Source of the DNA: Corallococcus sp. EGB
Lineage (GTDB): Bacteria > Myxococcota > Myxococcia > Myxococcales > Myxococcaceae
Direction of reading: 5' to 3'
Length of the DNA stretch: 64,000 nucleotides
NCBI RefSeq assembly: GCF_019968905.1
Contig: NZ_CP079946.1
Coordinates: 4,526,001 to 4,590,000, forward strand
The stretch's first letter is position 1, and each line of letters starts with the position of its first letter. Below the pieces are notes generated by a model that did no database searches, was not told the origin of the DNA, and worked only from the letters and a program-made list of their open reading frames with translations. This document shows positions 4,390 through 8,010 of this stretch, in pieces. A program made the translations under genes and the position numbers.

Positions 4390-5715
4390 TCACGCGACCT
4401 CGTGCACGGTCCGGGCCCAGCGCACCCCCTGCAGCCCCAGGCTCCGCACCTCGGCCTCCATCAGCGCGCCGTATTGCTCCTCCACCCATTGTGGGAAGGA
4501 GGTGTCCGGCGCCGCGAGTACCAGGTACCCGTCCTCCAGTCCCACCGCTCGGGCCTTGCCCAGCCACGACAGCGCGTACCGCTTGCCCTGCCCGCGCACG
4601 CGCTCCGGGCAGGAACTCCAGACGCGAGCGGCTTCCGTGGACTCGCCCTGATCCGTGGCCTGTCCGCCGGATGCGTCCGCGTCCACGCCCACGTCCGTAC
4701 CGGCCCCCAGGGGAGGGACGTAGCGCGTCCACACTCGCGGCGAGCAGAACGCGACCACGGTGCCCGGAGGCTGCCGGGTCCGGCCCCAGTCGGACTGGAG
4801 GTAGCCCTGGCAGGCCGCATGGAGCCGGGCCTCGTCGCCGTCCACGCCGCGCAGTGCCTGGGCATACCAGTCCGCCCAGCCGGTGGGCGGCTTCTCCCGG
4901 GGGACGCCCCGGAAGGCCCGGGTCCGGGCGTCCTGGAAGGCCTCGAAGTAGGCCTCCGCGCGGGCGGGGACGGGACGTCCGGCGTCGGGCGACGGCGCGG
5001 GAGTATCCGCGCGGGGCGGGGTGGCAGGGACGAGGTGTGTGCCGGGCAGGGAGAGCTGGACGGGGTCCTGCTCCGCGTCCGGGGGCGTGTCCTCGATGGG
5101 CATGAGCGCCACCGGAGCCAGGTGGGCGGGGAGCGCGGTGACGGTTTCCTGTTCATCCAGGCCCGCGGCAGCAGATGACGAACTCTTGTTCTCCTTCTCC
5201 CTTCTCTTTCTGGGAGAGGACGTCCCGGACATGTCCCGAGGACGTCCCGCGGACACGTCATGTCCCCTCGATGCGGCCCGTTCGCGCCGTTTGCGCTCGG
5301 CCTCCTTCTTCCGCTTGTCGAGCACCCCGACGTAGCGCTCGCACAGGGTGAGGCGCACGCCGTCGTCTTCGCGGATCAGGATGCGGGCGCGGAGGAGGGC
5401 GGACCAGAATGCGCCGGGGGTGCCCGTCCAGCGGACGGCGGACTCCAGCGCTTCGATCCACACGGCTTCGTCCGCGGACGCGGCCCACGCCTGTCCGCCG
5501 GACATGTCCGCGGACAGTCCGAAGGACACGAAGCGCCCTTCGGGCAGGGCCTGGACGGCCCAGATCTGCAGTTCCACCATGGCACCCAGGAACGCGCGCC
5601 GCTCCATGCCCAGGGCCCGCGCGGCGCCGATCACCGCGAGGCTCATGGGGAAGCCCACGTCCACCTGCACCCAGTCCAGACCCGCCACGTCCACGCCTCC
5701 CGACCCGGACGCCAC
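4390..5715 (-). CDS. Orphan replication-initiator-like protein with C-terminal DnaA domain-I-like module
   Basis: A protein of 441 residues from a GTG start. Residues ~12-135 are laid out like the N-terminal winged-helix domain of phage replisome organizers (GLDWVQVDVGFPMSLAVIG; GAFWSALLRARILIREDDGV; LTLCERYVGVLDKRK). A basic and Ser/Pro-rich linker follows (~136-290). Residues ~364-441 resemble DnaA domain I: a helix with a conserved Trp, LSWLGKARAVGLEDG, then YLVLAAPDTSFPQWVEEQY, comparable to DnaA's L.L.AP..F..WV...Y. DnaA domain I contacts the replicative helicase and regulators, so helicase recruitment is a natural inference. No AAA+ motor is present. No phage genes are nearby. The gene carries repeated palindromes in its own coding sequence and paired CTGTAGC repeats upstream. 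Domain matches come from motif reading only. Confidence 0.65.
   Translation of the reverse strand: MASGSGGVDVAGLDWVQVDVGFPMSLAVIGAARALGMERRAFLGAMVELQIWAVQALPEGRFVSFGLSADMSGGQAWAASADEAVWIEALESAVRWTGTPGAFWSALLRARILIREDDGVRLTLCERYVGVLDKRKKEAERKRRERAASRGHDVSAGRPRDMSGTSSPRKRREKENKSSSSAAAGLDEQETVTALPAHLAPVALMPIEDTPPDAEQDPVQLSLPGTHLVPATPPRADTPAPSPDAGRPVPARAEAYFEAFQDARTRAFRGVPREKPPTGWADWYAQALRGVDGDEARLHAACQGYLQSDWGRTRQPPGTVVAFCSPRVWTRYVPPLGAGTDVGVDADASGGQATDQGESTEAARVWSSCPERVRGQGKRYALSWLGKARAVGLEDGYLVLAAPDTSFPQWVEEQYGALMEAEVRSLGLQGVRWARTVHEVA
5183..5265. repeat. Phased palindrome array beside a pyrimidine tract inside the initiator-like gene
   Basis: Within the linker-coding part of the gene lie palindromes GGACGTCC (5218-5225), GGACATGTCC (5227-5236), GGACGTCC (5240-5247) and a degenerate GGACACGTCATGTCC (5251-5265). 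The 12-mer GAGGACGTCCCG is repeated exactly at 5216-5227 and 5238-5249, a 22-bp period (two helical turns). Directly adjacent, 5189-5211 is an unbroken 23-nt pyrimidine run at about half the local G+C content. Iterons next to a strand-biased, easily melted tract resemble lambda ori within gene O. Coding constraint (RPRDMSG, KRREKENK) could also have produced it. Confidence 0.5.
5491..5517. repeat. Near-perfect 27-nt palindrome containing GGACATGTCC
   Basis: CTGTCCG (5491-5497), one extra C, the 12-bp palindrome CGGACATGTCCG (5499-5510), then CGGACAG (5511-5517): a palindrome broken by a single base. Its core GGACATGTCC is identical to the 10-mer at 5227-5236 in the same gene, about 270 bp away. 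It encodes LSADMSGGQ. Possibly a second binding site of the same DNA-binding protein. Confidence 0.45.
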
Positions 5716-5770: not shown

Positions 5771-5788
5771 GCTACAGCGGGCTACAGG
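5771..5788 (-). promoter_or_regulatory. Direct repeat CTGTAGC-N3-CTGTAGC upstream of the initiator-like gene
   Basis: On the minus strand this reads CCTGTAGCCCGCTGTAGC: two 7-bp half-sites ten bases apart, on one face of the helix, 56-73 bp upstream of the GTG start at 5715. The same pair, with a different 3-nt spacer, lies 65-82 bp upstream of the clp start at 23394 in the same orientation. Two matches of 15 fixed bases in 64 kb are unlikely by chance, so a shared regulator is inferred. Confidence 0.55.
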
Positions 5789-5811: not shown

Positions 5812-8010
5812 TCAGGGGGTGGCGCAGCCTCCCGTGGCGGGCGGGCTGATCACATGGCCGACAGCCAAGGAGCAGGACTGGACACTGCGCAGGTGGATGT
5901 AGCCCGCAGCGCCGCCGCCACCTCCGCCCCCGCCCTCCGTGGAGAAGGCGTCCTTGGTTCCTTCAATGCCTTTGCCCGGGCCGGTTGTGCCCGCGCCTCC
6001 ATCTCCTCCGTCTCCTCCCGTGGTGGCTCCTCCCGTACCGCCAGCCGCGGGGCTCGCTGACTCCGTGCTGCCATCGCTCGCATTCCTTCCATCGTTGTTG
6101 GCGCTGCTGCCTCCCTCGCCACCGCCTCCACCATTGGCGGTGACGCGGGCTGCCGGGGTGAGCGTCAGTTGGAAGGCTTCGAGCACCACACGGCCGCCGC
6201 TACCACCGCCGCCGCCGCCCGCCCCCTTGTTGCCGGCACCCTTGCCGCCGTCACCACCCGTGCCGCTCGCGGAGATGGTCTTCGCCACGGTCAGGTTGCG
6301 CGCGACGGACAGTTGGAAGGCACCGCCACCCGCTCCGCCCTTGCCTCCCGTGGCTGAACCCGAACCTCCACCATTGCCACCCGGGCAGCCTCCCAGAAGG
6401 GGTTCGGCTCCGGCAGGCCGGACGATGCCCGCGACGCCAGGGCTCGCGCCGGTGCTGTTTCCCTTGCCGCCGTCCACTCCCGTGGTGCCATTGCCCGCGC
6501 CGCCACCGCCACCGCCCGTCTTTCCCCCGAAGGCGCCGTCGCGTCCCTGAGACGCACCGCAGGCCGCGTTGGGGTTCGCGATGCTGCCGGTGGCCAGGAT
6601 GGACTGGTCCACGTTCGCGTCTCCGTACACGGCCAGGATGACGGGAGAAGGACCCTTGAGGGTCAGGCTCCCCTTCAACTCCAGGGTCCGCACCGGAATG
6701 AGCAGGACCGGCGGATTGCCGCCCGACTGGGAAATCGACAAGACCTTCGGCGTGGATGCCATCGCGCCCGAAGGGGCCCAGGTCGAACTCGCGGTGTCGA
6801 ACGTCACGTTCCCGGTGGTCTTCAACTCACCAATGTCCGCGGCCGCGATGTCCTTCGGATCAAAGTTGTAGGGCCGGTAGGGGAACGGAGTGCAGGTGGC
6901 GTCCGCCTGGCACACGCCAGGGACTCCACTGGCGGTCGTGCACACCCCATTGAGGTCCAACTCGTAGTCGCACTCAGTGCTCGCAGTGCACTGCTGCTTG
7001 ACGCGATAGCACGGCGGCGGAGTGCAGGTCCCGGGCGTGGCCACGCAGTTCCCGGTCCCATCACAGTGGTCGTCCGTGGTGCACGTCCTCGCGTCCTGAC
7101 ACGAGGTGGTGGGCGGCAGCGGAGCGAAGACACATTTGCCAGTGGCCGGGATGCACGTCCCCACACTTGCCAGACACTGATCCGTCGAGTTGGTGCACGA
7201 GACCGCGATGCCTGTGCACTTCCCATCCGCTCCGCAAATGTCGCCTGCCGTGCACTCGTCGCGGTCATCACAGCTCTTGCCGACCATGGACCCCACGGCC
7301 TCGCAGCGCCCGGAGGTGGGGTTGCACTCCTGACGCGCGTCGCAGGCGCCCGTGGGCTGGGTGCACGTGGTCGTCTGCGCCGGTACGCACCTCGCCTCCA
7401 GGCCCACGCCCTCGCAGTGGTCCCCCGTCGTGCAGGCGTTGCCGTCGTCGCACGGGTTGCCCCCGCAGCCCTCCTCCTGGCAGCCCACCCGCTGGTTGCA
7501 GTTGAGGTCCTTGGTGGAGCCGCAGGACTCCACGGCGCCCGGATGCACGGCCGGGTTCGAGTCATCGCAGTCCGCGGGCTCGTCCCACATGGCGTCCGCG
7601 AGGTGGCCGTCGCCGTCCGCGTCCGTCGCCTTCAACGTCACGTCGAAGCTCGTGAACTTCTTCGCGACGATGGCAAGCGGCCCATCGCTCTCGTACTTCT
7701 CCACGAAGGCCCCGTCACAGCCGGCGGCCGTCGCGGCCGCGTACGACGACGCCGTCACGCTCAGCGCCGCGTCCCAGTCCGCCTTCCGGCGCACCGCGAC
7801 CCGGACCTCTTTCTTGTCGGCGTTCTTGAACTGACTGGAGAGGATGTCCGTGCGGTCCCCATGGCCGCTCGCGTCCTTCACCTCCACCCGCACGCACGCG
7901 GGCTGGAAGGAGCCGTACTTCACGGACACGCGGATGGCGCCCTCGTCGGGAGCCTTCTCCCCACAAGCGGCCAGCAACATCACACATCCCAACAGGCAGA
8001 GCCGAAACAT
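5812..8010 (-). CDS. Surface lipoprotein: metal-binding-motif, Cys-rich and Gly-rich regions
   Basis: A protein of 732 residues. The signal MFRLCLLGCVMLLAAC has its lipobox cysteine at 16. Residues ~130-170 hold the myxobacterial putative metal-binding motif (DADGDGHL, DCDDSNPAVHPGAVESC). Residues ~170-370 are a chain of Cys-rich repeats of the type C.DG..CT..D.C.......C. The C-terminal third is a glycine-rich beta-solenoid-like region (GGGGGGGAGNGTTGVDGG and similar) ending GYIHLRSV. Proteins of this make-up are common in myxobacteria and are presumed cell-surface or extracellular-matrix components; ligand and role are unknown. A TACAGT box 8 nt before the ATG suggests a leaderless transcript. 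Confidence 0.8.
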   Translation of the reverse strand: MFRLCLLGCVMLLAACGEKAPDEGAIRVSVKYGSFQPACVRVEVKDASGHGDRTDILSSQFKNADKKEVRVAVRRKADWDAALSVTASSYAAATAAGCDGAFVEKYESDGPLAIVAKKFTSFDVTLKATDADGDGHLADAMWDEPADCDDSNPAVHPGAVESCGSTKDLNCNQRVGCQEEGCGGNPCDDGNACTTGDHCEGVGLEARCVPAQTTTCTQPTGACDARQECNPTSGRCEAVGSMVGKSCDDRDECTAGDICGADGKCTGIAVSCTNSTDQCLASVGTCIPATGKCVFAPLPPTTSCQDARTCTTDDHCDGTGNCVATPGTCTPPPCYRVKQQCTASTECDYELDLNGVCTTASGVPGVCQADATCTPFPYRPYNFDPKDIAAADIGELKTTGNVTFDTASSTWAPSGAMASTPKVLSISQSGGNPPVLLIPVRTLELKGSLTLKGPSPVILAVYGDANVDQSILATGSIANPNAACGASQGRDGAFGGKTGGGGGGAGNGTTGVDGGKGNSTGASPGVAGIVRPAGAEPLLGGCPGGNGGGSGSATGGKGGAGGGAFQLSVARNLTVAKTISASGTGGDGGKGAGNKGAGGGGGGSGGRVVLEAFQLTLTPAARVTANGGGGGEGGSSANNDGRNASDGSTESASPAAGGTGGATTGGDGGDGGAGTTGPGKGIEGTKDAFSTEGGGGGGGGAAGYIHLRSVQSCSLAVGHVISPPATGGCATP

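Follow-up and report, generated by a model that had tools for sequence, protein, structure and literature searches.

A phage-initiator-like gene of Corallococcus sp. EGB with conserved origin-like boxes inside its coding sequence and a C-terminal DnaA domain I

The window analyzed here, a 64,000-nt stretch of the Corallococcus sp. EGB chromosome (NZ_CP079946.1, positions 4,526,001–4,590,000), contains an initiator-like gene that carries two clusters of GGAC–GTCC boxes and an A/T-richer tract within its own coding sequence (CDS), and that encodes what is almost certainly a DnaA domain I at its C-terminal end. The boxes and the tract are very probably selected DNA elements inside this gene, because the boxes exceed what synonymous shuffling yields, their codons are fixed in copies from different genera, and GGAC is kept in the second cluster despite changes of the encoded residues. 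As the best explanation we favor, with confidence slightly above even, a phage-derived one-gene replicator cassette, i.e., an initiator with an intragenic origin served by its own product, which has been kept in the chromosome.

A preliminary description of this sequence had reported palindromes, an exact repeat of the 12-mer GAGGACGTCCCG (at 5216 and 5238, a 22-bp period), a 23-nt pyrimidine run (5189–5211) and a near-palindrome at 5491–5517, and had placed the array in the linker-coding part of the gene. All of these features were found as described and the placement was upheld, but the near-palindrome was shown to be part of a larger conserved cluster (5470–5527; Table 1). In 2000 synonymous codon shuffles of the 441-codon open reading frame (ORF), none reached the five GGAC–GTCC palindromic boxes of the window copy (0.61 expected) or its 51 GGAC/GTCC half-sites (31.8 expected), and three reached its maximal A/T count in any 45 bp (24 compared to 19.4 expected). 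Perfect 8-bp palindromes in general showed no excess in the window copy in the same shuffles (14 compared to 12.7 expected, P 0.38), and the box excess is therefore motif-specific. All ten copies tested, the window copy and nine others, contained 4–6 boxes compared to 0.24–1.02 expected, with at most 1 of 2000 shuffles giving as many. The A/T excess held in nine of these ten (L071 not significant, P 0.11; L075 weaker, P 0.012), and copy L073 also showed a general palindrome excess (P 0.016). The region 5180–5216 has an A/T content of 0.51 in a window of approximately 71% GC, and just 0.4% of the 37-bp windows in the 64 kb are equally A/T-rich; the tract it covers is a candidate DNA-unwinding element. 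A search of the genome with a two-box pattern (≤3 mismatches) gave 18 matches compared to 5 for the reversed control. The sole exact match and 3 more were located in this gene and 14 elsewhere in the genome, and a regulon sharing these boxes at other loci is conceivable.

Codon conservation was analyzed in 22 full-length copies from 4 genera, a set from which the distant copy L087 (42% identity) and two copies cut by contig ends, L052 and L090, are left out (residue numbers of fixed codons follow the 441-aa form). The box codons G157 GGA, R158 CGT, G164 GGG and S166 TCC were found in 22/22 copies, compared to set-wide shares of 21.9, 10.1, 18.4, and 57.4%, and the tract codon R169 AGA was also present in 22/22 copies compared to a gene-wide share of 4.5%. 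In cluster B, GGAC was retained in all 22 copies though the encoded residues vary (GRP, GQA, GQS, GHA, GHV, GRT, or GRS). Among the highest-ranked 12-codon synonymous windows listed for this set, 12 of 14 fell in the linker array, and the other two were located at residues 23–35. The palindrome at 5240 was perfect in every copy, and at 5218 the 10 copies without a perfect box read GGACATCC. As judged from these alignments, conservation holds for the half-sites as a set more than for each full palindrome. The case that would have refuted the earlier interpretation, orthologues that keep the protein and lose the boxes through synonymous changes, was looked for and not found: the key codons are fixed, although only one of the three palindromes in the array is perfect throughout the set.

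The C-terminal domain is not a phage O/P-type helicase-binding tail. The Pfam family DnaA_N was matched at E up to 1 by 22 of 23 family members (best 1.8e-9), and the window copy alone gave an E value of 0.0099, which falls short of the Pfam cut-off. A PDB profile search of the C-terminus gave DnaA chains as sole matches, all of them weak (E 0.025 to 1.9). Foldseek matched the C-terminus to 4tps_D (E 4e-3). With VIA, 4tps_D was aligned at Z 9.5 (root-mean-square deviation 2.9, 81 aligned); three DnaA domain I structures scored Z 9.5, 8.2, and 7.6, and DciA came next (7.0 and 6.6). The genome's own DnaA also matched the C-terminus, with 33% identity over residues 361–426 of the 441-aa form. Neither an AAA+ domain nor a DnaA-box-binding domain IV was detected in the window copy, where Pfam matched DnaA_N only. 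A search with PF08299 gave one match per genome in 10/10 genomes, in each case at a position other than this gene. Within the candidate docking motif, the position of S397 is occupied by Tyr in 19 of 23 copies, by His in two, by Phe in one and by Ser in the window, and two residues further on Arg is found in 21/23 copies and Pro (P399) in the window. In the alignment, S397 falls on the Phe that we take to be Phe46 of E. coli DnaA domain I. Domain I of E. coli DnaA aids recruitment of DnaB, and the binding of DnaB depends on Phe46 (PMC5448010).

The complete protein is a mosaic of a phage-initiator-like N-terminal half, a disordered linker, a helical domain and DnaA domain I. Two PHROG families annotated as "replication initiation protein," 9474 (E 3.8e-12) and 2509 (E 0.0023), matched the N-terminal half and the start of the linker. 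AlphaFold predicted, at low confidence, helices and a beta hairpin whose order resembles that of a winged helix. When this low-confidence N-domain model was compared with viral models, a "primosomal protein" ranked second (E 1e-3) and a "replisome organizer" fifth (E 0.073); compared with solved structures, the best match was an unrelated protein (Z 5.5), and the DnaD N-domain 2vn2_A gave Z 3.0, so that this comparison is weak and a DnaD-type fold was not demonstrated. No NCBIfam family was found for the window protein.

Table 1. Positions of the initiator-like gene, its encoded domains and associated DNA features in the window.
Feature	Position	Strand	Remarks
Initiator-like CDS	4390..5688	minus	432 aa; ORF open from 5715 (441-codon form)
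DnaA domain I, residues 350–425	4414..4641	minus	Candidate DnaB-docking module
Window-only changes S397, P399	4492..4500	minus	Motif PD-x-(Y/H)-F-R-QW in 21/22 other A1 copies (distant L087 is the exception)
Middle helical domain, residues 240–323	4720..4971	minus	Common to phage Mx4 p24 and to relatives L002 and L003 at other loci of the genus
Further GGACGTCC box	4973..4980		End of linker-coding part
Linker, residues 144–237	4978..5259	minus	Predicted disordered
A/T-richer pyrimidine tract adjoining cluster A	5180..5213		Purine-rich on coding strand; rare codons conserved between genera; putative unwinding element
Box cluster A	5216..5265		GGACGTCC at 5218, GGACATGTCC at 5227, GGACGTCC at 5240, GGAC...GTCC at 5251–5265; linker-coding part
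N-terminal domain, residues 1–142	5263..5688	minus	Predicted helix-helix-strand-helix-helix-hairpin-long helix; resembles phage replication-initiation proteins
Box cluster B	5470..5527		Alternating GTCC/GGAC half-sites including GGACATGTCC at 5500; encodes disordered N-domain loop
Deletion junction, ~184 bp compared to L040	5747..5764		Lost: GTAGACG-N17-CAGATCGCG, upstream GGACGTCC box, GATC cluster
Two CTACAG (CTGTAG) repeats	5772..5787		Outer end of upstream region

The gene more probably starts at GTG 5688 than at 5715, the position described earlier, because GTG 5688 has a GGGAGG ribosome site and lies where homology begins. The gene is under purifying selection, and dN/dS, the ratio of nonsynonymous to synonymous substitution rates, was 0.20–0.41 in all 11 pairs of copies computed. 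Six neighboring ORFs of the window encode a methyltransferase, an OmdA/DUF1905 protein, a protein without Pfam match, a MopE-motif lipoprotein, MutS2 and a cyclase; no phage family was found among them in a Pfam scan (PHROGs were not run on these ORFs), in agreement with the earlier remark that other phage genes are lacking around the gene. As judged from these Pfam results and from the unrelated sites, which share the gene only among the pairs listed, the gene does not lie within a phage replication module. The MopE-motif lipoprotein gene (window 5812–8010) matches two or three places in the L040–L043 loci of other strains, as if locally duplicated.

The DNA upstream of the gene was surveyed at 25 loci, up to 400 bp before the CDS. 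A promoter-like GTAGAC...CAGATC pair was present in 17/25 loci, and the exact form GTAGACG-N17-CAGATCGCG had 17 occurrences, spread over 16 of 92 genomes, each of them preceding a copy of the gene or a remnant. A wider regulon of this element was considered and rejected: some match was found in 27/92 genomes, but the 17 exact 17-nt-spaced ones all precede a copy or remnant and the rest are spaced otherwise. An exact GGACGTCC was located 264–266 bp upstream of the conserved CDS start in five of the six other g1 loci, near GTAGACG-N17-CAGATCGCG, and also upstream in one g3 locus, and it was absent from all g19 and g6 loci. The word CTGTAGC was found in 14/15 g1, g3, and g6 loci (L087 apart) and in 0/9 g19 loci. 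GATC occurred 3–8 times per 400 bp in 23/25 loci, compared to an average of 0.81 in the same length over the 64 kb of the window, and once in the window copy and likewise in the distant L087. Upstream of copies such as L040, L043, and L072, including those at unrelated sites, the density of GATC was thus approximately 4–10 times that of the whole window, which may point to methylation or to a binding site. The deletion of approximately 184 bp in the window relative to L040 falls between similar GGACGTCC-like words. The deleted upstream segment, the single GATC and the unique S397 and P399 suggest that the window copy may be weaker than most copies seen, and that part of its control or activity has probably been lost.

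Full-length or contig-cut copies were found in 7/16 genomes of the window's genus, and copies were found in 22/96 genomes of the family, belonging to 4 of 26 genera; this count omits 8 of the 30 genomes detected at E ≤ 1e-12, two with remnants and six with distant relatives only. Across the phylum, 26 of 195 genomes, from 4 of 90 genera, matched a profile of the N-domain; the remnants in G011 and G033 and weak matches in G014 and G018 are among them. Carriers include Corallococcus interemptor, C. exercitus, Corallococcus sp. CA053C (remnant), Pyxidicoccus caerfyrddinensis, P. fallax, Archangium violaceum, and a Myxococcus sp. Within the window's genus the gene was found in one syntenic neighborhood. 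It is missing at the syntenic place in G014 and in G002, which may keep a 10–18 bp scar of the gene end (detected by eye). As G011 carries a remnant of the gene and G002 this possible scar, some of the absences in the genus are probably losses.

The gene and a partly conserved upstream region were found at seven to eight chromosomal sites, the count being given as a range because sites S2 and S6 have neighbors in common (a histidine kinase gene) in different arrangements. Among the pairs listed, S2–S8 have only the gene and part of the upstream DNA in common. In G000, G017, G021, and G063, which carry the gene elsewhere (compared by hand), a distance of 270 kb to 1.7 Mb separates the S5 flank from the gene, and the S3 flank was present without the gene in all eight chosen congeners. 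Pieces of the S4 flank map to several places, which left this site without a position on a complete chromosome. Site labels change nine times on the tree, and the minimum for nine labels is eight. Two copies each were found in G063 and G079, one copy and the distant L087 in G020, and one copy and three contig-end pieces in G056. Pieces of the gene at or near contig ends were seen in G056 (C234, C557, and C778) and in G067 (C52, C54, C65, and C74), as if it were present in multiple copies, and the true copy number may exceed the count.

In all nine carriers assembled in ≤3 contigs (of 22 carriers), one copy is located 0.42–0.49 of the chromosome from dnaA: 0.480 in G000, 0.464 in G003, 0.442 in G013, 0.440 in G022, 0.424 in G063, 0.435 in G068, 0.491 in G034, 0.471 in G017, and 0.482 in G021. 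These distances are hand arithmetic on the main contig, and the other 13 of the 22 carriers are too fragmented to be placed. The nine carriers represent five to six different sites, several of them sharing one, and the second copy of G063, at 0.249 from dnaA, is a counter-example to a terminus bias. Mobile DNA often collects near termini. Because of this and of the shared site, the bias is treated as a lead only. A further reading, possible though rather unlikely, is a relocating one-gene origin that selection would maintain as a conditional second origin, with a preference for the region of the replication terminus in large myxobacterial chromosomes.

Outside these copies, the protein p24 of Myxococcus phage Mx4 (UAW08023.1, hypothetical protein) matched residues 240–420 at 33.7%. 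Its gene lies near the methylase, RusA-like resolvase, and MazG-like genes of the phage; this relative and the PHROG 9474 match bear out the initiator-like character that the preliminary description had assigned to the protein. The p24 gene contains 15 GTCACG/CGTGAC sites compared to 5.4 expected (0/1000 shuffles), which flank an inverted repeat on both sides. The p24 protein (L149:5350–6651) probably initiates replication and has a DnaA domain I, and its intragenic repeat array is a candidate Mx4 origin. Among 50,697 phage records, the two Mx4 records were the only relatives; viral contigs gave 15 pattern matches, none of them a relative. Within one chromosome, at 2.48 and 2.89 Mb and in alike surroundings, two further initiator-like genes (L002:679–2319 and L003:1000–2313) carry GGGGACATGTCCCC-type boxes. 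They contain three GGAC-NN-GTCC boxes each, compared to 0.56 and 0.66 expected (8 and 10 of 1000 shuffles), and in L002 the boxes surround a purine-rich A/T tract in the linker. The distant L087 has six boxes compared to 0.54 expected (0/1000 shuffles). GTCAC/GTGAC sites numbered 14 compared to 9.1 expected in L046 of G003 and 11 compared to 6.5 expected in L089 of G060 (1/1000 shuffles each). In L046 (9107–10312) the repeats lie in the linker, the box word is unlike that of the window, and the DnaA_N match is weak; 2/10 ORFs surrounding it have weak PHROG matches, and a prophage could not be recognized there. The N-domain profile gave no match in Mx4 p24, L002, L003, L046, or L089.

An origin served by its own product is the likeliest single mechanism for this gene, and we give it a little better than an even chance; we infer binding, melting, helicase recruitment and firing alike. 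The GGAC/GTCC boxes of clusters A and B would be bound by the protein they lie in the gene of, through its N-terminal domain or the basic residues that follow, and the A/T-richer purine tract beside cluster A would be opened. The C-terminal DnaA domain I, on its long flexible linker, would then recruit the DnaB helicase of the host to the exposed strand, like DnaA domain I at oriC. Initiator, origin and helicase contact would in this way all be contained in a single ORF.

Several observations weigh against an intragenic origin of this kind. In the scan of the window's genus only, a set that includes the contig-cut L052, the gene start ranks first and the array next, and cluster B is not among the top synonymous windows listed. 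Perfect palindromes were found at 5218 in 12/22 and at 5227 in 9/22 copies, and L087 lacks the GTSS part of the linker. The AlphaFold model has a mean pLDDT (predicted local distance difference test score) of 55.1 at full length and 54.8 for the N-domain. The window copy itself lacks part of the upstream segment, and S397 and P399, in the candidate helicase-docking motif, are unique to it. The gene is dispensable, because 9 of 16 congeners, some of which are draft assemblies, yielded neither an intact nor a contig-cut copy. Over ±200 kb around the gene, cumulative GC skew showed no origin-like minimum; it has a local maximum of small size and a 20-kb dip (272, compared to an overall rise of 6288). 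Among the relatives, the excess in L046 is seen only in the looser GTCAC/GTGAC count (GTCACG form, 5 compared to 4.4 expected). Relatives without this N-domain (Mx4 p24, L002, and L046) also carry linker boxes, and the boxes may therefore be read by a part other than the N-domain.

With a modest probability, the product could instead be a self-binding regulator without origin activity, which would bind the intragenic and upstream boxes and control its own transcription, while its DnaA domain I would compete with host DnaA for DnaB or for DnaA regulators and so modulate replication. The exact box near the promoter-like element in five of six g1 loci, and the strict association of all 17 exact elements with the gene or its remnants, are in line with such a regulator. 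So is the prophage protein YfdR, a phage product that acts via DnaA domain I (PMC5448010). However, the biggest box clusters lie deep in the CDS beside the A/T tract, where they are unneeded for repression, and the g19 and g6 loci lack the exact upstream box, yet the 5240 box is perfect in 22/22 copies.

Purifying selection in 11/11 pairs, the fixed box codons, the promoter-like element common to 17/25 loci and the presence of the same lone gene at seven to eight places, with nothing else in common among the comparisons listed, make it quite improbable that the gene is the last one left of integrated phages and its boxes a fossil origin. Such a decaying prophage would nevertheless account for the remnants in G011 and G033, for the possible scar in G002, and for the losses of upstream DNA and of two docking-motif residues in the window copy. 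We consider it very unlikely that the codons are constrained at the level of RNA or translation, through mRNA hairpins of the palindromes or slow codons in the linker. The palindromes are able to form hairpins and the rare codons are located in the linker, but the same box lies upstream of the promoter-like element, outside the CDS, in five g1 loci and one g3 locus, cluster B retains half-sites and not full palindromes, and relatives have other box sequences at the same place. Two further identities were tried and rejected: an iteron plasmid Rep (no Rep family of Pfam matched with E ≤ 10, and 72,556 plasmid records searched at E 0.001 contained no relative) and an anti-phage defence gene (no PADLOC match at E 0.01).

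Origins inside initiator genes are already known from phages. For a stand-alone chromosomal gene with this layout and a fused DnaA domain I, no description was found among the titles listed in searches of an open-licence library. If the proposed origin fires, myxobacterial chromosomes of 9–13 Mb would possess, in most cases at a great distance from oriC, a second origin derived from a phage, and a replicator of the smallest conceivable kind, a single ORF, would be open to direct test. If it does not fire, the gene is still a clean case of dual coding, with a protein and a DNA element selected in the same bases. The gene is not classed as a phage replisome organizer, because it lies outside a phage module and the binding of the boxes is a deduction.

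In phage lambda, the iterons and an A/T-rich tract lie in the linker-coding part of the initiator gene O, and lambda O hands over to lambda P. Compared to lambda O, the gene described here has a DnaA domain I, palindromic GGAC–GTCC boxes and two box clusters. The gp38 protein (G38P) of Bacillus phage SPP1 binds oriL inside gene 38, whose coding sequence contains the repeats and an A/T-rich element for unwinding (PMC6316719). The likeness is that of an initiator gene holding its own origin-like repeats and an A/T-richer element within the CDS. SPP1 has a separate loader, gp39, and a helicase, gp40, in the phage genome, whereas here the initiator itself ends in a DnaA domain I and is encoded alone in the chromosome. 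In phage P1, oriL has been postulated to lie within repL, and synonymous substitutions in the A/T region impair oriL (PMC9948254). The two systems are alike in having a (candidate) origin within the initiator gene and an A/T region, and differ in that P1 is a phage replicon. Mx4 p24 has the middle domain and DnaA domain I in common with the window protein and carries intragenic repeats upstream of the middle domain, but it has another N-terminus and another box word (GTCACG), and it lies within a phage genome. With DnaA, the gene has the domain I fold in common (its C-terminal 75 residues) without the AAA+ and DnaA-box-binding domains, and the order is reversed, the presumed DNA-binding part coming first and domain I last. 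The presence of DnaA domain I in phage-type initiators, including that of Mx4, suggests a way for myxophages to capture the host helicase without a dedicated loader.

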